Below, piece by piece: positions 30,876 through 38,893 of a stretch of 64,000 nucleotides of DNA. The notes under the pieces were generated by a model that saw only the letters and a program-made list of their open reading frames with translations, did not search any database and was not told where the DNA came from. Within the stretch, counting starts at the first letter, position 1; each line of letters starts with the position of its first letter. The translations under genes were made by a program, and so were the position numbers. This DNA is from Candidatus Omnitrophota bacterium (GTDB taxonomy: Bacteria; Hinthialibacterota; Hinthialibacteria; Hinthialibacterales; JAKPRU01): contig JAKQSI010000111.1 of the NCBI GenBank assembly GCA_029570205.1, forward strand, positions 16,949 through 80,948. The letters are read 5' to 3'.

Positions 30876-31387
30876 GCTCCTCCACGCTCAACGTGTCGCA
30901 CCTCAATTTTTTGACAAGCAAATACCAAACCAAAATGCCAGTATTGATTTAAAGCCAGCAAATCCAAATAGTTGGAAACTCAACCCGATGAACTGCAATT
31001 TTGTTGTCTATGCTCCGCAGGCGAAAAATGGAGCAACGCCCATCGCTTAATGATGGTGATGATAAACACACAAATTTCCTTATGTCAAGGTGTTTTCAAT
31101 TTCATTTTCAGGCCAAAAAGGAGGATTAATTTCCATAATTATAGAATAATCAACAAGTTATATGATAAATTCGGAATTTTGAAACGGCCTCAAAATTCTT
31201 CAGTGAGGCTTCGCCATGAAAATTGTGTGAAATAAGATGCAAGAAGATGCAATTTGTGTGGGTGAAAACGCTTGACACTTTGCAGTTTTGCACTATAGTT
31301 AGAAGGTCTTTGTGCCAGATAGTATTTTTGGGCACTTGAAAAAGAACATATTCTTTGTCTGATGATTCGTCGAAAGGAGAACTTGGC
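30876..31387. other. AT-rich divergent intergenic region
   Basis: About 510 bp with no convincing gene separate the LysM-M23 gene from the dockerin gene. The stretch is clearly richer in A+T than its surroundings. It holds the promoter at 31272-31299 and the leader of the dockerin gene. No riboswitch or RNA gene was recognised. Confidence 0.6.
31272..31299 (+). promoter_or_regulatory. Strong predicted sigma70-type promoter
   Basis: A perfect TTGACA (31272-31277), a 16-nt spacer and TATAGT (31294-31299), about 90 bp before the dockerin-protein start, in an AT-rich context. It probably drives the dockerin gene and perhaps the cohesin-like gene. Confidence 0.65.
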
Positions 31388-31987
31388 ATGCTTCGGACAT
31401 CCACGACTCCGCGCGTTGCCCATCTTTTCTGGGTTGGTCTGCTGGTAATAATGGTCCCGGTTGCGGTGTATGCGCAATCGGAAACCCCGACGGCAGCACC
31501 GGAAACCCCCACCGAAACCCCGACAGTGGTACCGGAGACCCCCACGGAAACGCCGACGGTCGTACCGGAAACTCCTACCGCTGTCCCGACAAATACTCCG
31601 AGACCGACGGAAACGCCGACAGCCAGACCGACGGAAACGCCAACAGCCAGACCGACGGAAACGCCGACAGCCACGCCAAAACCGACCGAAAGCCCAACCG
31701 CCGTTCCCGAGACTCCCACTTCTACTCCGACGGTGACCCCGCAGCCCGCACGGCCTGGTGATCTCGATGGAGACGGGGAGCTTTCTTCGGCGGATGCGGA
31801 TCTCCTTATTGAGTTGATATTGTATGGAACCATAAACGGAGAACCCGCAACCACGGAACAGCGCGCTCTCGCCGACCTCACCGGGGACGGAGAGGTGACA
31901 GCACAAGATGCGCAAGAAGTCTTCCTGAGACAATCGCTGATGTTATTTTTGAAGACCATTGACAAAGGACGTATGGCAGAACAGTGA
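31388..31987 (+). CDS. Secreted Thr-Pro linker protein ending in a type I dockerin-like domain
   Basis: A 199-residue protein from the ATG at 31388 (AAGGAG eight bases upstream). A signal peptide (HLFWVGLLVIMVPVAVYAQ) is followed by a Thr/Pro/Glu-rich linker (31-123) made of TPTE/TPTA repeats. Residues 124-181 form a dockerin-like module with two Ca-binding loops, DLDGDGELSSAD (125-136) and DLTGDGEVTAQD (163-174), separated by a helix. Dockerins bind cohesins to build secreted multi-protein complexes. No catalytic or binding module is present apart from the linker. The next gene has a cohesin-like domain and a related N-terminus, so the two may interact directly. Confidence 0.8.
   Translation: MLRTSTTPRVAHLFWVGLLVIMVPVAVYAQSETPTAAPETPTETPTVVPETPTETPTVVPETPTAVPTNTPRPTETPTARPTETPTARPTETPTATPKPTESPTAVPETPTSTPTVTPQPARPGDLDGDGELSSADADLLIELILYGTINGEPATTEQRALADLTGDGEVTAQDAQEVFLRQSLMLFLKTIDKGRMAEQ
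31487..31740 (+). repeat. Thr-Pro coding repeats in the dockerin gene
   Basis: Degenerate tandem repeats encoding TPTE/TPTA units include three nearly identical 24-bp copies between about 31596 and 31670. Such repeats can expand or contract, so linker length may vary between strains. Confidence 0.7.
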
Positions 31988-32161
31988 GCGCCGATTCGGA
32001 TGGTCAAATGACGTAATCAAGAATAACGCATGTCCCTTCCCAGGGGACGTCCGTTGTTCTGTTCAATTGGTTTGAAAGATCGATTCGTGATGATGAATAC
32101 GAAGTACGCAACCAGAAAGGCCAAAACCGGCGGAATGAATGCAAGCGAAAGGGGATCATCG

Positions 32162-34102
32162 ATGACCTCGACGACCTATTCCATTCCAGTGAGAACGTTC
32201 AGGATTGCAGGGATCCTTTTTATCGGGTTCTGTTTTTCGTTAATCACCATGGGGGTATACGCGCAGGAAACCCCTACGGCGGTCCCGGAGACTCCCACAG
32301 AGACTCCAACGGTTATTCCCGAGACTCCCACAGAGACTCCGACGGTCGTTCCAGAGACCCCGACAGCCATTCCAACGGCGACGCCACGACCGACAGAGTC
32401 TCCCACCGCGACTCCACGACCTACAGAATCGCCCACAGCAACGCCGAGGCCGACGGAATCTCCTACCGCGACTCCACGACCCACGGAATCGCCTACGGCC
32501 ACTCCGGTGCCGGTGACTCCCAAGCTGCGTGCGGGGCAGGCGGAAGGCCGACCCGGTGATGCCGTTGTTATCGCGATTACCGGTGAAGATATGCCCACGA
32601 CGGATGCCTTTGGGTTTGATCTGACCTATAACAATCTCCGCTTGAAATTTGCCGAGATTTTACGTGGTTCACATACTCAGGGGTGGTATGCGGTAAGTGC
32701 GGCTGATTTGTCGGGTGTTCTCCGTGTTGTCGGCATTGCGGGAACGGCTCCGGCAATCTCCGGTAATGGTGAGATCGCTCAAATACGGTTCACGATTCAG
32801 TCGAACGCGCCGGAAGGGATTGTCCCGCTTGATTTCAAGGTCATTACGGATGATCTGGCTTCGGCGCAAGCGATCTCCGGTTCGATTACTATTCTGCCTG
32901 CGGCAGAGACTCCGACAGAGACACCGACGGCGGTTCCGACGGAGACCCCGACCTTTACACCGACTCGAACAGCAACACCGGTTCCTACCAGCACACCAAC
33001 GCTCGGTCCGATAGAAACGCCGACGGCGATTCCAACAGAGACCCCTGTTGGGACTCCGACCGTAACGCCTACTATCACGGGCACTCCGATTCCAAGGATG
33101 GATCCCGGGCAGTCCATTATAGCTTTGAGCGCGTGGGGCGACATTGCCGCATTGGGCAATATCAAGGGCTTCGTGGATGTGGATAACAACGGGTATTTGG
33201 ATGATCCGTTGCCGCATCCGACCGGACCGTATCCGCCGCGCGTTTCCGGGTACACGGCTTTCGACATCGCGAATGTTGTCAACAGTCGGGGGCTTGTTAC
33301 TCCGGGCTTCCTGGTTATGCTGACCGAACAGGGTAAGACTATCTCGTATCAGTTTGTGGAAAACCCGTTTGCCGATCAGAAGATTGTCTCGAATGTGTTC
33401 CCAGACTTGGCCCGTGATGTCCTTGGCCGAGCCAGCCAGGTACGGTTTGTGGATATTGAGATCAATACTGCACTGGACGGATACTTCGCACTAAGCGAGT
33501 TGGGCCGTGTGATTTCAGTCAGCGGAACGCCGCGAAATGTGGTGGCGAACGGTGCGGAAGTAAAACCGTTCCTCGCTTCACCGGAGACAGCAGTTGACTT
33601 GGAACTGCTCCCGGGTGGTGGAGTTGCGGGTCAGTTGCAGGGGTACATTCTGACCTCCACAGGCCGGATTGTCGCAATCGGCGATGTGCCGCAGCTGATC
33701 CCGACCAGAGAACTTCGAAACAAGGGAACGTTCATCGAGATGGACCTTGTGCTGGGTCAGGCCGGGGAACTTCTTGGAGCGGTCCTGGCGAACGGTGTCG
33801 GCGAGTTCTATCTGGCGGCAGTGGAAGGTGCGAATACCTTGCCGCCGGTTGATCTGCCGGAAGGCGATTACGCTCGCCTGCTGTTCCCGTTGAGCACACC
33901 GCTGGTTCTTCAGGCATTCGAGCTGGTTCCAACCGAAGAAACCTTTGGAATCATTGCTCTGGACCGAACCGGCGCGCTCCACACCTTCGGTCGTGCCAGC
34001 CGGTATCTGCCGACCCTGGAACAGCTGCAATCGGTGCTTCTCTTGTGGGGAACCGCAGGTGTCGATCTCTCCGTTCATCAGTATCCCGGTTTGGGAAAAT
34101 AA
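32162..34102 (+). CDS. Secreted protein with cohesin-like domain, Thr-Pro linkers and propeller-like C-terminal domain
   Basis: A 646-residue protein from the ATG at 32162 (AAAGGGG upstream; the longer open frame lacks support). The signal peptide ends GVYAQ as in the upstream gene. Linker 36-118 includes four copies of PTESPTATPR. Residues 119-245 look like a cohesin: VVIAITGEDMPTTDAFGFDL, LKFAEILRGS, GVLRVVGIAGTA, GEIAQIRFTI. A second Thr-Pro linker (249-312) leads to a domain (313-646) with blades such as GYILTSTGRIVAIGD and IIALDRTGALHTFGRAS. Cohesins bind dockerins, and a dockerin protein lies directly upstream. A strong terminator follows. The cohesin call is from fold-level motifs and should be verified. 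Confidence 0.75.
   Translation: MTSTTYSIPVRTFRIAGILFIGFCFSLITMGVYAQETPTAVPETPTETPTVIPETPTETPTVVPETPTAIPTATPRPTESPTATPRPTESPTATPRPTESPTATPRPTESPTATPVPVTPKLRAGQAEGRPGDAVVIAITGEDMPTTDAFGFDLTYNNLRLKFAEILRGSHTQGWYAVSAADLSGVLRVVGIAGTAPAISGNGEIAQIRFTIQSNAPEGIVPLDFKVITDDLASAQAISGSITILPAAETPTETPTAVPTETPTFTPTRTATPVPTSTPTLGPIETPTAIPTETPVGTPTVTPTITGTPIPRMDPGQSIIALSAWGDIAALGNIKGFVDVDNNGYLDDPLPHPTGPYPPRVSGYTAFDIANVVNSRGLVTPGFLVMLTEQGKTISYQFVENPFADQKIVSNVFPDLARDVLGRASQVRFVDIEINTALDGYFALSELGRVISVSGTPRNVVANGAEVKPFLASPETAVDLELLPGGGVAGQLQGYILTSTGRIVAIGDVPQLIPTRELRNKGTFIEMDLVLGQAGELLGAVLANGVGEFYLAAVEGANTLPPVDLPEGDYARLLFPLSTPLVLQAFELVPTEETFGIIALDRTGALHTFGRASRYLPTLEQLQSVLLLWGTAGVDLSVHQYPGLGK
32390..32510 (+). repeat. 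Tandem 30-bp coding repeats (PTESPTATPR x4)
   Basis: Four nearly identical 30-bp units encode the ten-residue linker unit PTESPTATPR, with most differences at third positions. Confidence 0.75.
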
Positions 34103-34134
34103 CGGGGGGTGCGACTCTCAATAAGATGATTTAT

Positions 34135-34180
34135 GAGGATCAGGAGTCCGGTTGAAGAAGGCTCCTGATCCTCTTTATTG
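34135..34180 (+). terminator. Rho-independent terminator after the cohesin-like gene
   Basis: The inverted repeat GAGGATCAGGAG...CTCCTGATCCTC (34135-34173) is followed by TTTATTGTT. It closes the dockerin-cohesin transcription unit. Confidence 0.8.
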
Positions 34181-36358: not shown

Positions 36359-38893
36359 ATGCGATTTTCATTCTGGTTGCCTGTCTTGGTGGTTCTGGCC
36401 GCAGTGGGGTTGGTCGCCTTGCTGCTGTTTCTTCCTTCGACGGATATACCGGATCAGACCGGGACAGGAACATCCATTTTAGAGCCGACACGGGTCGAGA
36501 TATCCGGGACCGGCGAAGTCTCCCAGGGGCCGAGCGCATCGGTCCTTGGGTCTTCGGAAGAATCCGGTGGTTTCATTACGGCCGCGAGCGTCGAAGAAGG
36601 GGTAACACCGCCGACCGGTTCCACACGGAGCGGGGAAGAATTGTCCGTCGCATCCGGTACCGACACCGTATCTTCTTCCCAACCGCCCGGGCAAGAGACT
36701 TCCGACGCGGCTCATCCGCCGACCGGCGACACAATTTCGGGTGTGGTGTATTCGGGGAAACGGCTACCGCTGGCCGGTGTTGCCGTTGTTGCCGGGGAAT
36801 GGAGCGCCACCTCGGATAGCGCAGGGCAGTTTGCACTCAGCGGAATTCGGGAACCGAAAGTGGATATCGTATTCTCGCTTGAGGGGTATCAGACAGTTAC
36901 CAAGAACGCCGTGCCTGTCGGGACAAAGAATCTCAGTGTCATTCTGGTTGAAGATGGGCACCTGGCAGGTCGGGTTACGGACCAGAATGGGAAACCGGTC
37001 AGTTATGCCTCGGTGCGTCTGGAGGCCCAGACCGGGGTGTGGATGCTGTCGCTGGAGACGGATATCAGCGGGAGTTTCGATACGGAAAATGTGCCGAATG
37101 CGCAAATCCGTATCACGGCTACCTGCGAGGGACTGACCGATACCGGCGGCGGGTCGGTTGTGATTGAGACGCCTTATTCCGAACTTGTGATGCTGTGTTT
37201 GCAGCGCCCCAGTCTTTCTATCTCCGGTTCCGTGGTTATGGCGGATACGGGGCAGGGAGTAGCCGATTTTGCCCTGATTGCGCAAAAACAGGACGGGGCC
37301 ACCGCCGAACCTCTGCGCACGACTACGTCCTCCGGCGGGTCTTTCCGTTTTGATGAACTGGATATCGGAGTGTACCTGATCTCCAGTGATGCGGGTGAAA
37401 ACCAGGATTTGGGTGTGGCGATTCCCGTAACGGAGGACCACAAGACTGTTCGAGTATTCGACAAAAACGTAGAGAATGTCGTTTTTCTGGCCGGGCCGGG
37501 ATTAACCGTGTCCGGTCGTGTCATCGGGCCGGACGGGAACGGAGTTCCCGGCGCGATGGTGACCCTTGCGAACCAGTCCGGAGGGTACTCTTCCGGGGCA
37601 GGAGCGCAAGGGCGATTGAATACGAATTCCGTTTCGGATGGAAGCTATGAATTGCGCGGCGTGCCCTCTTCCGGTGGAGCGGGGGCAATGCAGGCGCGGA
37701 TGTTTGCCTCTCATTCGGAGTACGGTTCCGGCCTGAGCGAACCGTTTACACCGGATCCGAGTATGCGAGTCATCGAAAACATTAACATCACGCTGACCGG
37801 CAGCGCGACGGTTACCGGGCGTGTGCTGATCGGCCAACAGGTTGCCTCCGGGGCGCGGGTGACATTGATCGACCTTTTTCAGAATACAAGTTCGCAACAG
37901 ATTACCGACCAGATGGGTGGTTTCACCTTTAATAATGTTTCTGTGGTTTCCCAGAGGTACTCGACAGTAAACGGGTCGCACACCCTGATTGTGGAGATGG
38001 AGGGGTATGCGACCAAACGTCAGGATATCCTGGTCGATTCCACCAATATCGAGCCGATTATTGTGATATTAGATGAAGGGGGATTTATCCAGGGGCGCGC
38101 GCTCGACAACCAGGGACGGGGTATCCCCGGCGTTTTGGTCAGCGCAGTCTCTACGGATGGACAGAGGTACTCCGGATCGACTAACGAGGCCGGTGTTTAC
38201 TACATTTCGGGGCTGAAATCGGGGACCTACGATCTGCTGTTCCGCCTCGAGTCCAAGCCGCCGCTGTATGGAGCGCTGTATGATGTTCCCACCGGGCAGA
38301 CCGCTGCCGATGTGGTTCTGCAAAAGCAGGCGTGGACGGTGATGGGAACGGTAACGGACCGCGATACGGGCAAGCCGATTTCGCGGTATGTCCTTGCGGT
38401 CGAAGGACAGTTGAAAGACCCGAGGGCCGGCGCGTTCGTTACCAAACAGAATCTTAATACGCCGGATGGAACGTACCAGCTGACATTTCACGAGGCGGGC
38501 GTATATTATATCCATTTTTCTTCGGATGGCTACCAGCCGTGGGATGGGGCGGTTGCAATGACGCCGGAAACACAGGAGATCCAATTTGTGAATGCGGTAC
38601 TGGAGCCGCTTCAGGCGACCGGCCGGATTGTCGGCGCTCTTGAGGTCCCGGAGGGGACTGCTTTTGTACTGGTAGAGGTCCTCGGTCACGGGCAGTATCC
38701 GCCATCTGCGCCGAATGAATTTGTACTGGAAGAGGTACCGGCGGGGAAACATAGTTTAATTTTTTATGTACGCGGTCCGCGTGACGCCGGAGCCGGAGTG
38801 TACGGAGTTCTCTCTTCCGTACAGGTTATTCCCGGCCAGACGACCAACCTTGGATTTCTGACGGGGTCTGCGTTTCATGTGTCGGTGCGGTGA
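36359..38893 (+). CDS. Membrane-anchored protein with about eight carboxypeptidase-regulatory-like repeats
   Basis: An 844-residue protein. One N-terminal transmembrane helix (WLPVLVVLAAVGLVALLLFL) is followed by a Ser/Thr-rich spacer to about residue 120. About eight Greek-key (CnaB-like, carboxypeptidase regulatory-like) domains follow, each opening with a similar strand: ISGVVYSGKRLPLAGV, LAGRVTDQNGKPVSYAS, VSGRVIGPDGNGVPGAM, IQGRALDNQGRGIPGVLV, VMGTVTDRDTGKPIS. Such repeats serve as spacers or adhesion modules outside the cell. No catalytic domain or sorting signal is seen. It lies downstream of the hydrolase gene with a 39-bp gap. Confidence 0.8.
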   Translation: MRFSFWLPVLVVLAAVGLVALLLFLPSTDIPDQTGTGTSILEPTRVEISGTGEVSQGPSASVLGSSEESGGFITAASVEEGVTPPTGSTRSGEELSVASGTDTVSSSQPPGQETSDAAHPPTGDTISGVVYSGKRLPLAGVAVVAGEWSATSDSAGQFALSGIREPKVDIVFSLEGYQTVTKNAVPVGTKNLSVILVEDGHLAGRVTDQNGKPVSYASVRLEAQTGVWMLSLETDISGSFDTENVPNAQIRITATCEGLTDTGGGSVVIETPYSELVMLCLQRPSLSISGSVVMADTGQGVADFALIAQKQDGATAEPLRTTTSSGGSFRFDELDIGVYLISSDAGENQDLGVAIPVTEDHKTVRVFDKNVENVVFLAGPGLTVSGRVIGPDGNGVPGAMVTLANQSGGYSSGAGAQGRLNTNSVSDGSYELRGVPSSGGAGAMQARMFASHSEYGSGLSEPFTPDPSMRVIENINITLTGSATVTGRVLIGQQVASGARVTLIDLFQNTSSQQITDQMGGFTFNNVSVVSQRYSTVNGSHTLIVEMEGYATKRQDILVDSTNIEPIIVILDEGGFIQGRALDNQGRGIPGVLVSAVSTDGQRYSGSTNEAGVYYISGLKSGTYDLLFRLESKPPLYGALYDVPTGQTAADVVLQKQAWTVMGTVTDRDTGKPISRYVLAVEGQLKDPRAGAFVTKQNLNTPDGTYQLTFHEAGVYYIHFSSDGYQPWDGAVAMTPETQEIQFVNAVLEPLQATGRIVGALEVPEGTAFVLVEVLGHGQYPPSAPNEFVLEEVPAGKHSLIFYVRGPRDAGAGVYGVLSSVQVIPGQTTNLGFLTGSAFHVSVR

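Follow-up and report, generated by a model that had tools for sequence, protein, structure and literature searches.

What does a secreted dockerin do when no cargo is attached to it? Machines that digest cellulose are held together by a calcium-dependent snap between cohesin and dockerin, which are among the strongest known non-covalent protein pairs; to our knowledge, the two have been studied almost only as an enzyme-assembly device. The stretch analysed here (64,000 nucleotides from a Candidatus Omnitrophota bacterium of the Hinthialibacterota, a lineage in which we know of no cultured member; hereafter the window) contains a dockerin gene and a cohesin gene on the same strand, with 42 nt between them. 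The two genes and their modules are:

31388–31987, + strand: dockerin-only secreted protein of 199 aa (ORF, Pfam, orthologues L144, L145, L146, L147 and L087)
31754–31921, + strand: type I dockerin module with loops DLDGDGELSSAD and DLTGDGEVTAQD (Pfam and alignment A4)
32030–34102, + strand: cohesin-propeller protein, an ORF of 690 aa (ORF, Pfam)
32519–32899, + strand: type I cohesin module, residues ~164–290 (Pfam; structural match 4fl4_L)
33095–34099, + strand: six-bladed beta-propeller domain, residues ~356–690 (AlphaFold2 model and structural matches)

The first protein is laid out as a signal peptide (residues ~1–30), a Thr-Pro linker (~31–118) and the dockerin (~119–199), and an SD-like AAAGGAG precedes its ATG. 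Pfam Dockerin_1 (PF00404) matched residues 123–178 with an E-value of 4.7e-10 and 39.9 bits against a curated cut-off of 22.9, and no other Pfam family reached its cut-off on the remainder; Pfam thus bears out the original prediction that this protein is nothing but signal peptide, linker and dockerin. The dockerin is composed of two calcium-loop-plus-helix repeats, of which both loops carry D1, D5 and D12, and the calcium-ligand pattern is present in both save for a Thr at position 3 of loop 2. Signal-type N-termini were recognised on both window proteins by inspection, and an NCBIfam search of the two returned nothing at its cut-offs.

The second protein carries, in this order, a signal peptide, a Thr-Pro linker, the type I cohesin, a second linker and the six-bladed beta-propeller. 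Its start is probably Met45 (32162), as indicated by the signal peptide and by an AAAGGGG lying upstream, and the protein would then have 646 aa. Pfam Cohesin (PF00963) matched residues 166–279 of the 690-aa ORF (29.6 bits against a cut-off of 24.1, E 9.1e-7), a span that becomes ~119–245 in Met45 numbering, the numbering implied by the original prediction. That prediction stood or fell with a cohesin fold in residues 119–245, and such a fold was found: the modelled cohesin is a jelly-roll that aligns with the CipA type I cohesin 4fl4_L at Z 19.4 and 1.6 Å over 131 residues. The 335-residue C-terminal domain lacks any Pfam family, but its AlphaFold2 model, for which eight orthologues were used, is a beta-propeller (pLDDT 78, pTM 0.83). 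The best structural matches, from which the number of blades was judged, are six-bladed YWTD propellers (Z 19.0, 3.3 Å over 235 residues), compared with Z ~15 for WD40 propellers. Foldseek had ranked WD40 first with a low TM, but realignment ranked the YWTD propellers first and WD40 was rejected as the nearest fold. The modelled propeller fold by itself says nothing of function. Pfam and the models together agree with the predicted cohesin-like domain between Thr-Pro linkers followed by a propeller-like end. Since both modules pass their Pfam cut-offs in the HMM check that had been proposed, and no catalytic domain was recognised in either protein, the claim of a genuine non-catalytic cohesin/dockerin pair also holds.

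Two signals flank the pair:

31272–31299, + strand: sigma70-like promoter, TTGACA-16-TATAGT, 11/12 matches
34134–34173, + strand: hairpin 3' of the second gene, possible terminator, z −2.47

The first ATG follows 88 nt after the promoter box, which is identical in G001, a second species of the genus; by chance alone, ~2 such boxes would be expected over the scanned 3.5 kb. The hairpin was not listed by the terminator scan and its U-tract is weak, and so the terminator of the original prediction is only plausible. The window pair is syntenic in G002, and in G001, where a contig edge cuts the locus early in the dockerin gene and leaves its 5' end, the same synteny is seen. Between the window's genome (G000) and G002, dN/dS was 0.14 for the dockerin, 0.19 for the cohesin and 0.10 for the propeller; all domains are under purifying selection, by which both genes appear functional. 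The N-terminal regions of the two proteins share 65% identity over 123 residues, as expected from their predicted relatedness, though much of this is repetitive low-complexity linker.

Whether the two modules would dock was examined by folding them as one chain. The fusion was made by reading through the window DNA from dockerin to cohesin, with TGA as G and TAA as S; this is a device to join the modules, and no recoding is claimed. Of the 28 rows in the fusion alignment (A3), nine have dockerin and cohesin in one natural chain. In the AlphaFold2 model, the dockerin blocks mostly reached pLDDT 92–97 and the cohesin 97–98, and the dockerin helices (fusion residues 16–28 and 54–82) lie in blocks mostly above 88. 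The pTM was 0.60, while from the definition of pTM an unplaced dockerin would give 0.39–0.47 and a docked one 0.54–0.62. The model value speaks for docking, barring an improbably low error in the placement of the disordered linker.

We then compared 14 genomes of the phylum (4–7 Mb), nine of which (G000–G008) represent the order. The phylum, OLB16/Hinthialibacterota, has been described from 21 genomes of 3.4–7.5 Mb (PMC11382960), and an OLB16 lineage was misclassified as Omnitrophica (PMC10066038). Chance adjacency of dockerin and cohesin genes was rejected, because seven dockerin genes lay ≤4 kb from a cohesin gene on another ORF against 0.9 expected, a count that covers 145 listed dockerin matches above the curated cut-off and includes the orthologous window pair twice (G000 and G002). 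Eight ORFs hold a dockerin and a cohesin together.

Several other cohesins and dockerins are encoded in the window's own genome. The dockerin proteins examined there carry NHL repeats, Fn3-like domains, propeller-like domains or no other domain, and no carbohydrase, protease, glycosidase or other enzyme domain was found on them. Each cohesin protein scanned had one Pfam cohesin match, with a second cohesin-like domain seen by eye in two of them (C109 and C86), and none had a CBM. With no enzyme on the dockerins examined and no tandem-cohesin scaffold, a cellulosome was rejected, which is what the original prediction of a function other than cellulose digestion had proposed. A broader version of the idea is that the cohesin protein recruits enzymes, such as proteases, into a cellulosome- or planctosome-like assembly, with the dockerin-only protein as a minor accessory. 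Its precedent is the planctosome of freshwater Planctomycetes, in which cohesin-dockerin proteins were proposed to form a surface complex with peptidases (PMC6461901) and which, like the window pair, is non-cellulosomal and non-clostridial. The window pair, however, comes without peptidases; metalloprotease-dockerin proteins do occur in other genera of the order. We regard such an enzyme assembly as very improbable here, given the lack of protease and glycosidase domains on the own-genome dockerin proteins examined and the single cohesin of the window protein, which offers no multi-site scaffold.

Other architectures were seen in this genome. A 1080-aa protein (C109; L089:2671–5913, − strand) combines a cohesin-like domain, a dockerin, a cohesin, a long Thr-Pro linker and PPC domains, and a 1217-aa protein with NHL repeats (C26; L093:3083–6736, + strand) has three dockerins, each following a cohesin-like stretch as judged by eye. 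The gene for the cohesin-domain protein of C86 (L090:5187–7121, − strand) adjoins PilM/PilN-like genes for type IV pilus assembly, and a similar protein lies in the same pilus-gene context in G008 (L153).

The explanation we prefer, and to which we give somewhat better than even chances, is a non-catalytic cohesin-dockerin heterodimer with a propeller and an extracellular structural or adhesive role. Both proteins would be exported, and the 199-aa protein is predicted to attach through its type I dockerin, presumably with calcium, to its neighbour's type I cohesin. The product would be a forked secreted heterodimer: a single head, formed by the C-terminal six-bladed propeller, and two long Thr-Pro stalks, which are likely extended and possibly O-glycosylated. 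The ligand of the propeller may be a surface, a matrix or a polymer, and a second arm would come from the dockerin-stalk protein. As no enzyme is attached, the snap probably serves to build a fibre or an adhesive structure outside the cell.

How widely is the cargo-free dockerin conserved? Orthologues were found in seven of the nine genomes of the order, in G001 as the 5' end at the contig edge, and in G004 (L144), G005 (L147), G006 (L145) and G007 (L146) the protein likewise consists only of signal peptide, Thr-Pro linker and dockerin. A profile built from six of the dockerins scored 99–110 bits in exactly the six source genomes, the next match being a large protein at 51 bits, and the same search of the nine genomes found the gene missing from G003 and G008. 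On these profile matches, the dockerin-only protein is an order-wide family and not a local oddity. Its gene adjoins a transporter gene in G004, G005 and G006, with no cohesin gene beside it. In the sister family, the dockerin-only gene is not linked to the B-type propeller gene; four genera of this family encode, 0–3 genes from the B-type gene, a Fn3-like protein with a C-terminal dockerin (L050:882–1823, L052:3642–4637, L053:7273–8376 and L055:3491–4501).

Several points count against the heterodimer: in the sister family the dockerin-only gene has no cohesin gene beside it, most B-type propeller orthologues there are without a cohesin (see below), and the other cohesins and dockerins of the own genome could compete. 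The dockerin-only protein may instead be a general cap or adaptor for several cohesins (those of the A-type propeller protein, the cohesin-dockerin-cohesin protein and the window protein), blocking or tuning assembly, and its adjacency in the genus would then be incidental. It is the absence of linkage to any cohesin in the sister family that makes this a serious rival: the family is conserved even in genomes that have no propeller gene beside it, an A-type cohesin is present wherever the dockerin-only protein is, and the own genome has several further cohesin genes. In the genus of the window, however, the two genes are adjacent and their products have an N-terminal region in common, and we judge a general cap or adaptor to be rather unlikely.

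The propellers themselves bear on a further alternative. As a close match, the C-terminal domain of the window protein is single-copy in eight of the nine genomes, the ninth being cut by a contig edge just upstream; its nearest named relative (88% identity) is on contig JAKPYU010000283.1, labelled 'Candidatus Omnitrophota bacterium', and a contig search with a single propeller protein had the G002 contig as its sole match. Five of six B-type propeller orthologues in the sister family are without any cohesin. The A-type propeller paralogue is present in all nine genomes; its cohesin is lacking in G003 and G008 but present in G000, G001, G002, G004, G005, G006 and G007, and these seven are also precisely the genomes with a dockerin-only gene. 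As G003 and G008 represent sister genera (support 100/100), the joint absence may be one event and no significance can be claimed.

Further observations concern the surroundings of these loci. At window positions 36359–38893 lies a gene for an 844-aa protein in which seven CarboxypepD_reg repeats accompany a hydrophobic N-terminal segment. In the sister family, the starts of homologues recognised by eye lie close to the A-type propeller locus (L129, L130, L132 and L167), which suggests a common ancestral neighbourhood for the A and B loci. Immediately upstream of the A-type gene, all nine genomes encode a secreted protein of ~273–301 aa that looks like a cohesin with a dockerin inserted, Pfam support for both parts being weak (L088:6955–7824, − strand; L130:4549–5415, − strand; L167:1218–2039, + strand; L129:1929–2762, + strand; further copies in L128, L131, L132, L097 and L098). 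A dockerin inside its own cohesin suggests intramolecular capping. The A' loci of G004, G005 and G007 encode adjacent paralogous matrixin-like metalloproteases, one with a dockerin tail and one with an A-type propeller tail (L168:2163–6907, − strand; L169:494–5238, − strand; L171:2002–7030, + strand).

As read from these paralogous loci, a propeller protein beside a dockerin gene does not always have a cohesin. Dockerin and propeller might then be alternative C-terminal tails of duplicated secreted proteins, serving for instance anchoring or sorting, with the cohesin as an Ig-like spacer and no binding between the neighbours. The tails of the A' proteases, which differ between paralogues and come without a cohesin, would fit such a scheme, as would the propeller proteins of G003 and G008, which keep a dockerin-bearing neighbour while the cohesin is absent, and the related Thr-Pro N-termini of the window pair. 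Against it, the pTM of the fusion model implies a definite position of the dockerin with respect to the cohesin, and the genomes lacking the dockerin-only gene also lack the A-type cohesin; we hold alternative tails to be improbable.

The preferred heterodimer can be set beside known systems. Like the CipA-type pairs of the C. thermocellum cellulosome, both of its modules are type I; unlike them, it has no enzyme, CBM, tandem cohesins, SLH or sortase anchor, and its modules are joined to Thr-Pro linkers and a propeller. Cohesin-dockerin assemblies beyond cellulose digestion include the cellulosome-like system of Ca. Stygibacter (Cloacimonadota), whose scaffold has tandem cohesins (PMC8542988), and the mucinolysomes (PMC12997984). 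Both are reported to attach enzymes to scaffolds, whereas the window pair has one cohesin and a cargo-free dockerin. Among PDB sequences, the one closest to the window cohesin is a non-cellulosomal cohesin of Archaeoglobus fulgidus (2xdh; E 0.0066, structural Z 18.3), which is archaeal and stands in a different protein context. Dockerins have been reported on giant Omnitrophota proteins (PMC10066038), and in Ruminococcus flavefaciens dockerin proteins with only unknown regions were described (PMC2930009). In a limited literature search, we found no description of a conserved cargo-free dockerin family linked to cohesin-propeller proteins.

Non-cellulosomal cohesin-dockerin systems are thus already known, and the one in the window is a variant whose smallest partner has no cargo domain. 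New are the dockerin-only orthologous family and the finding that dockerin genes have cohesin genes as neighbours more frequently than expected by chance. A tentative extension, possible but in our estimate probably too broad, is that the pair serves across the order as a general snap for non-catalytic extracellular fibres; cargo-free dockerins would cap or extend cohesin-propeller heads, and the companion with a dockerin in its cohesin may make assembly self-limiting. If the preferred explanation is true, the cohesin-dockerin snap would serve non-enzymatic extracellular architecture, and the window would offer a small, directly testable pair.
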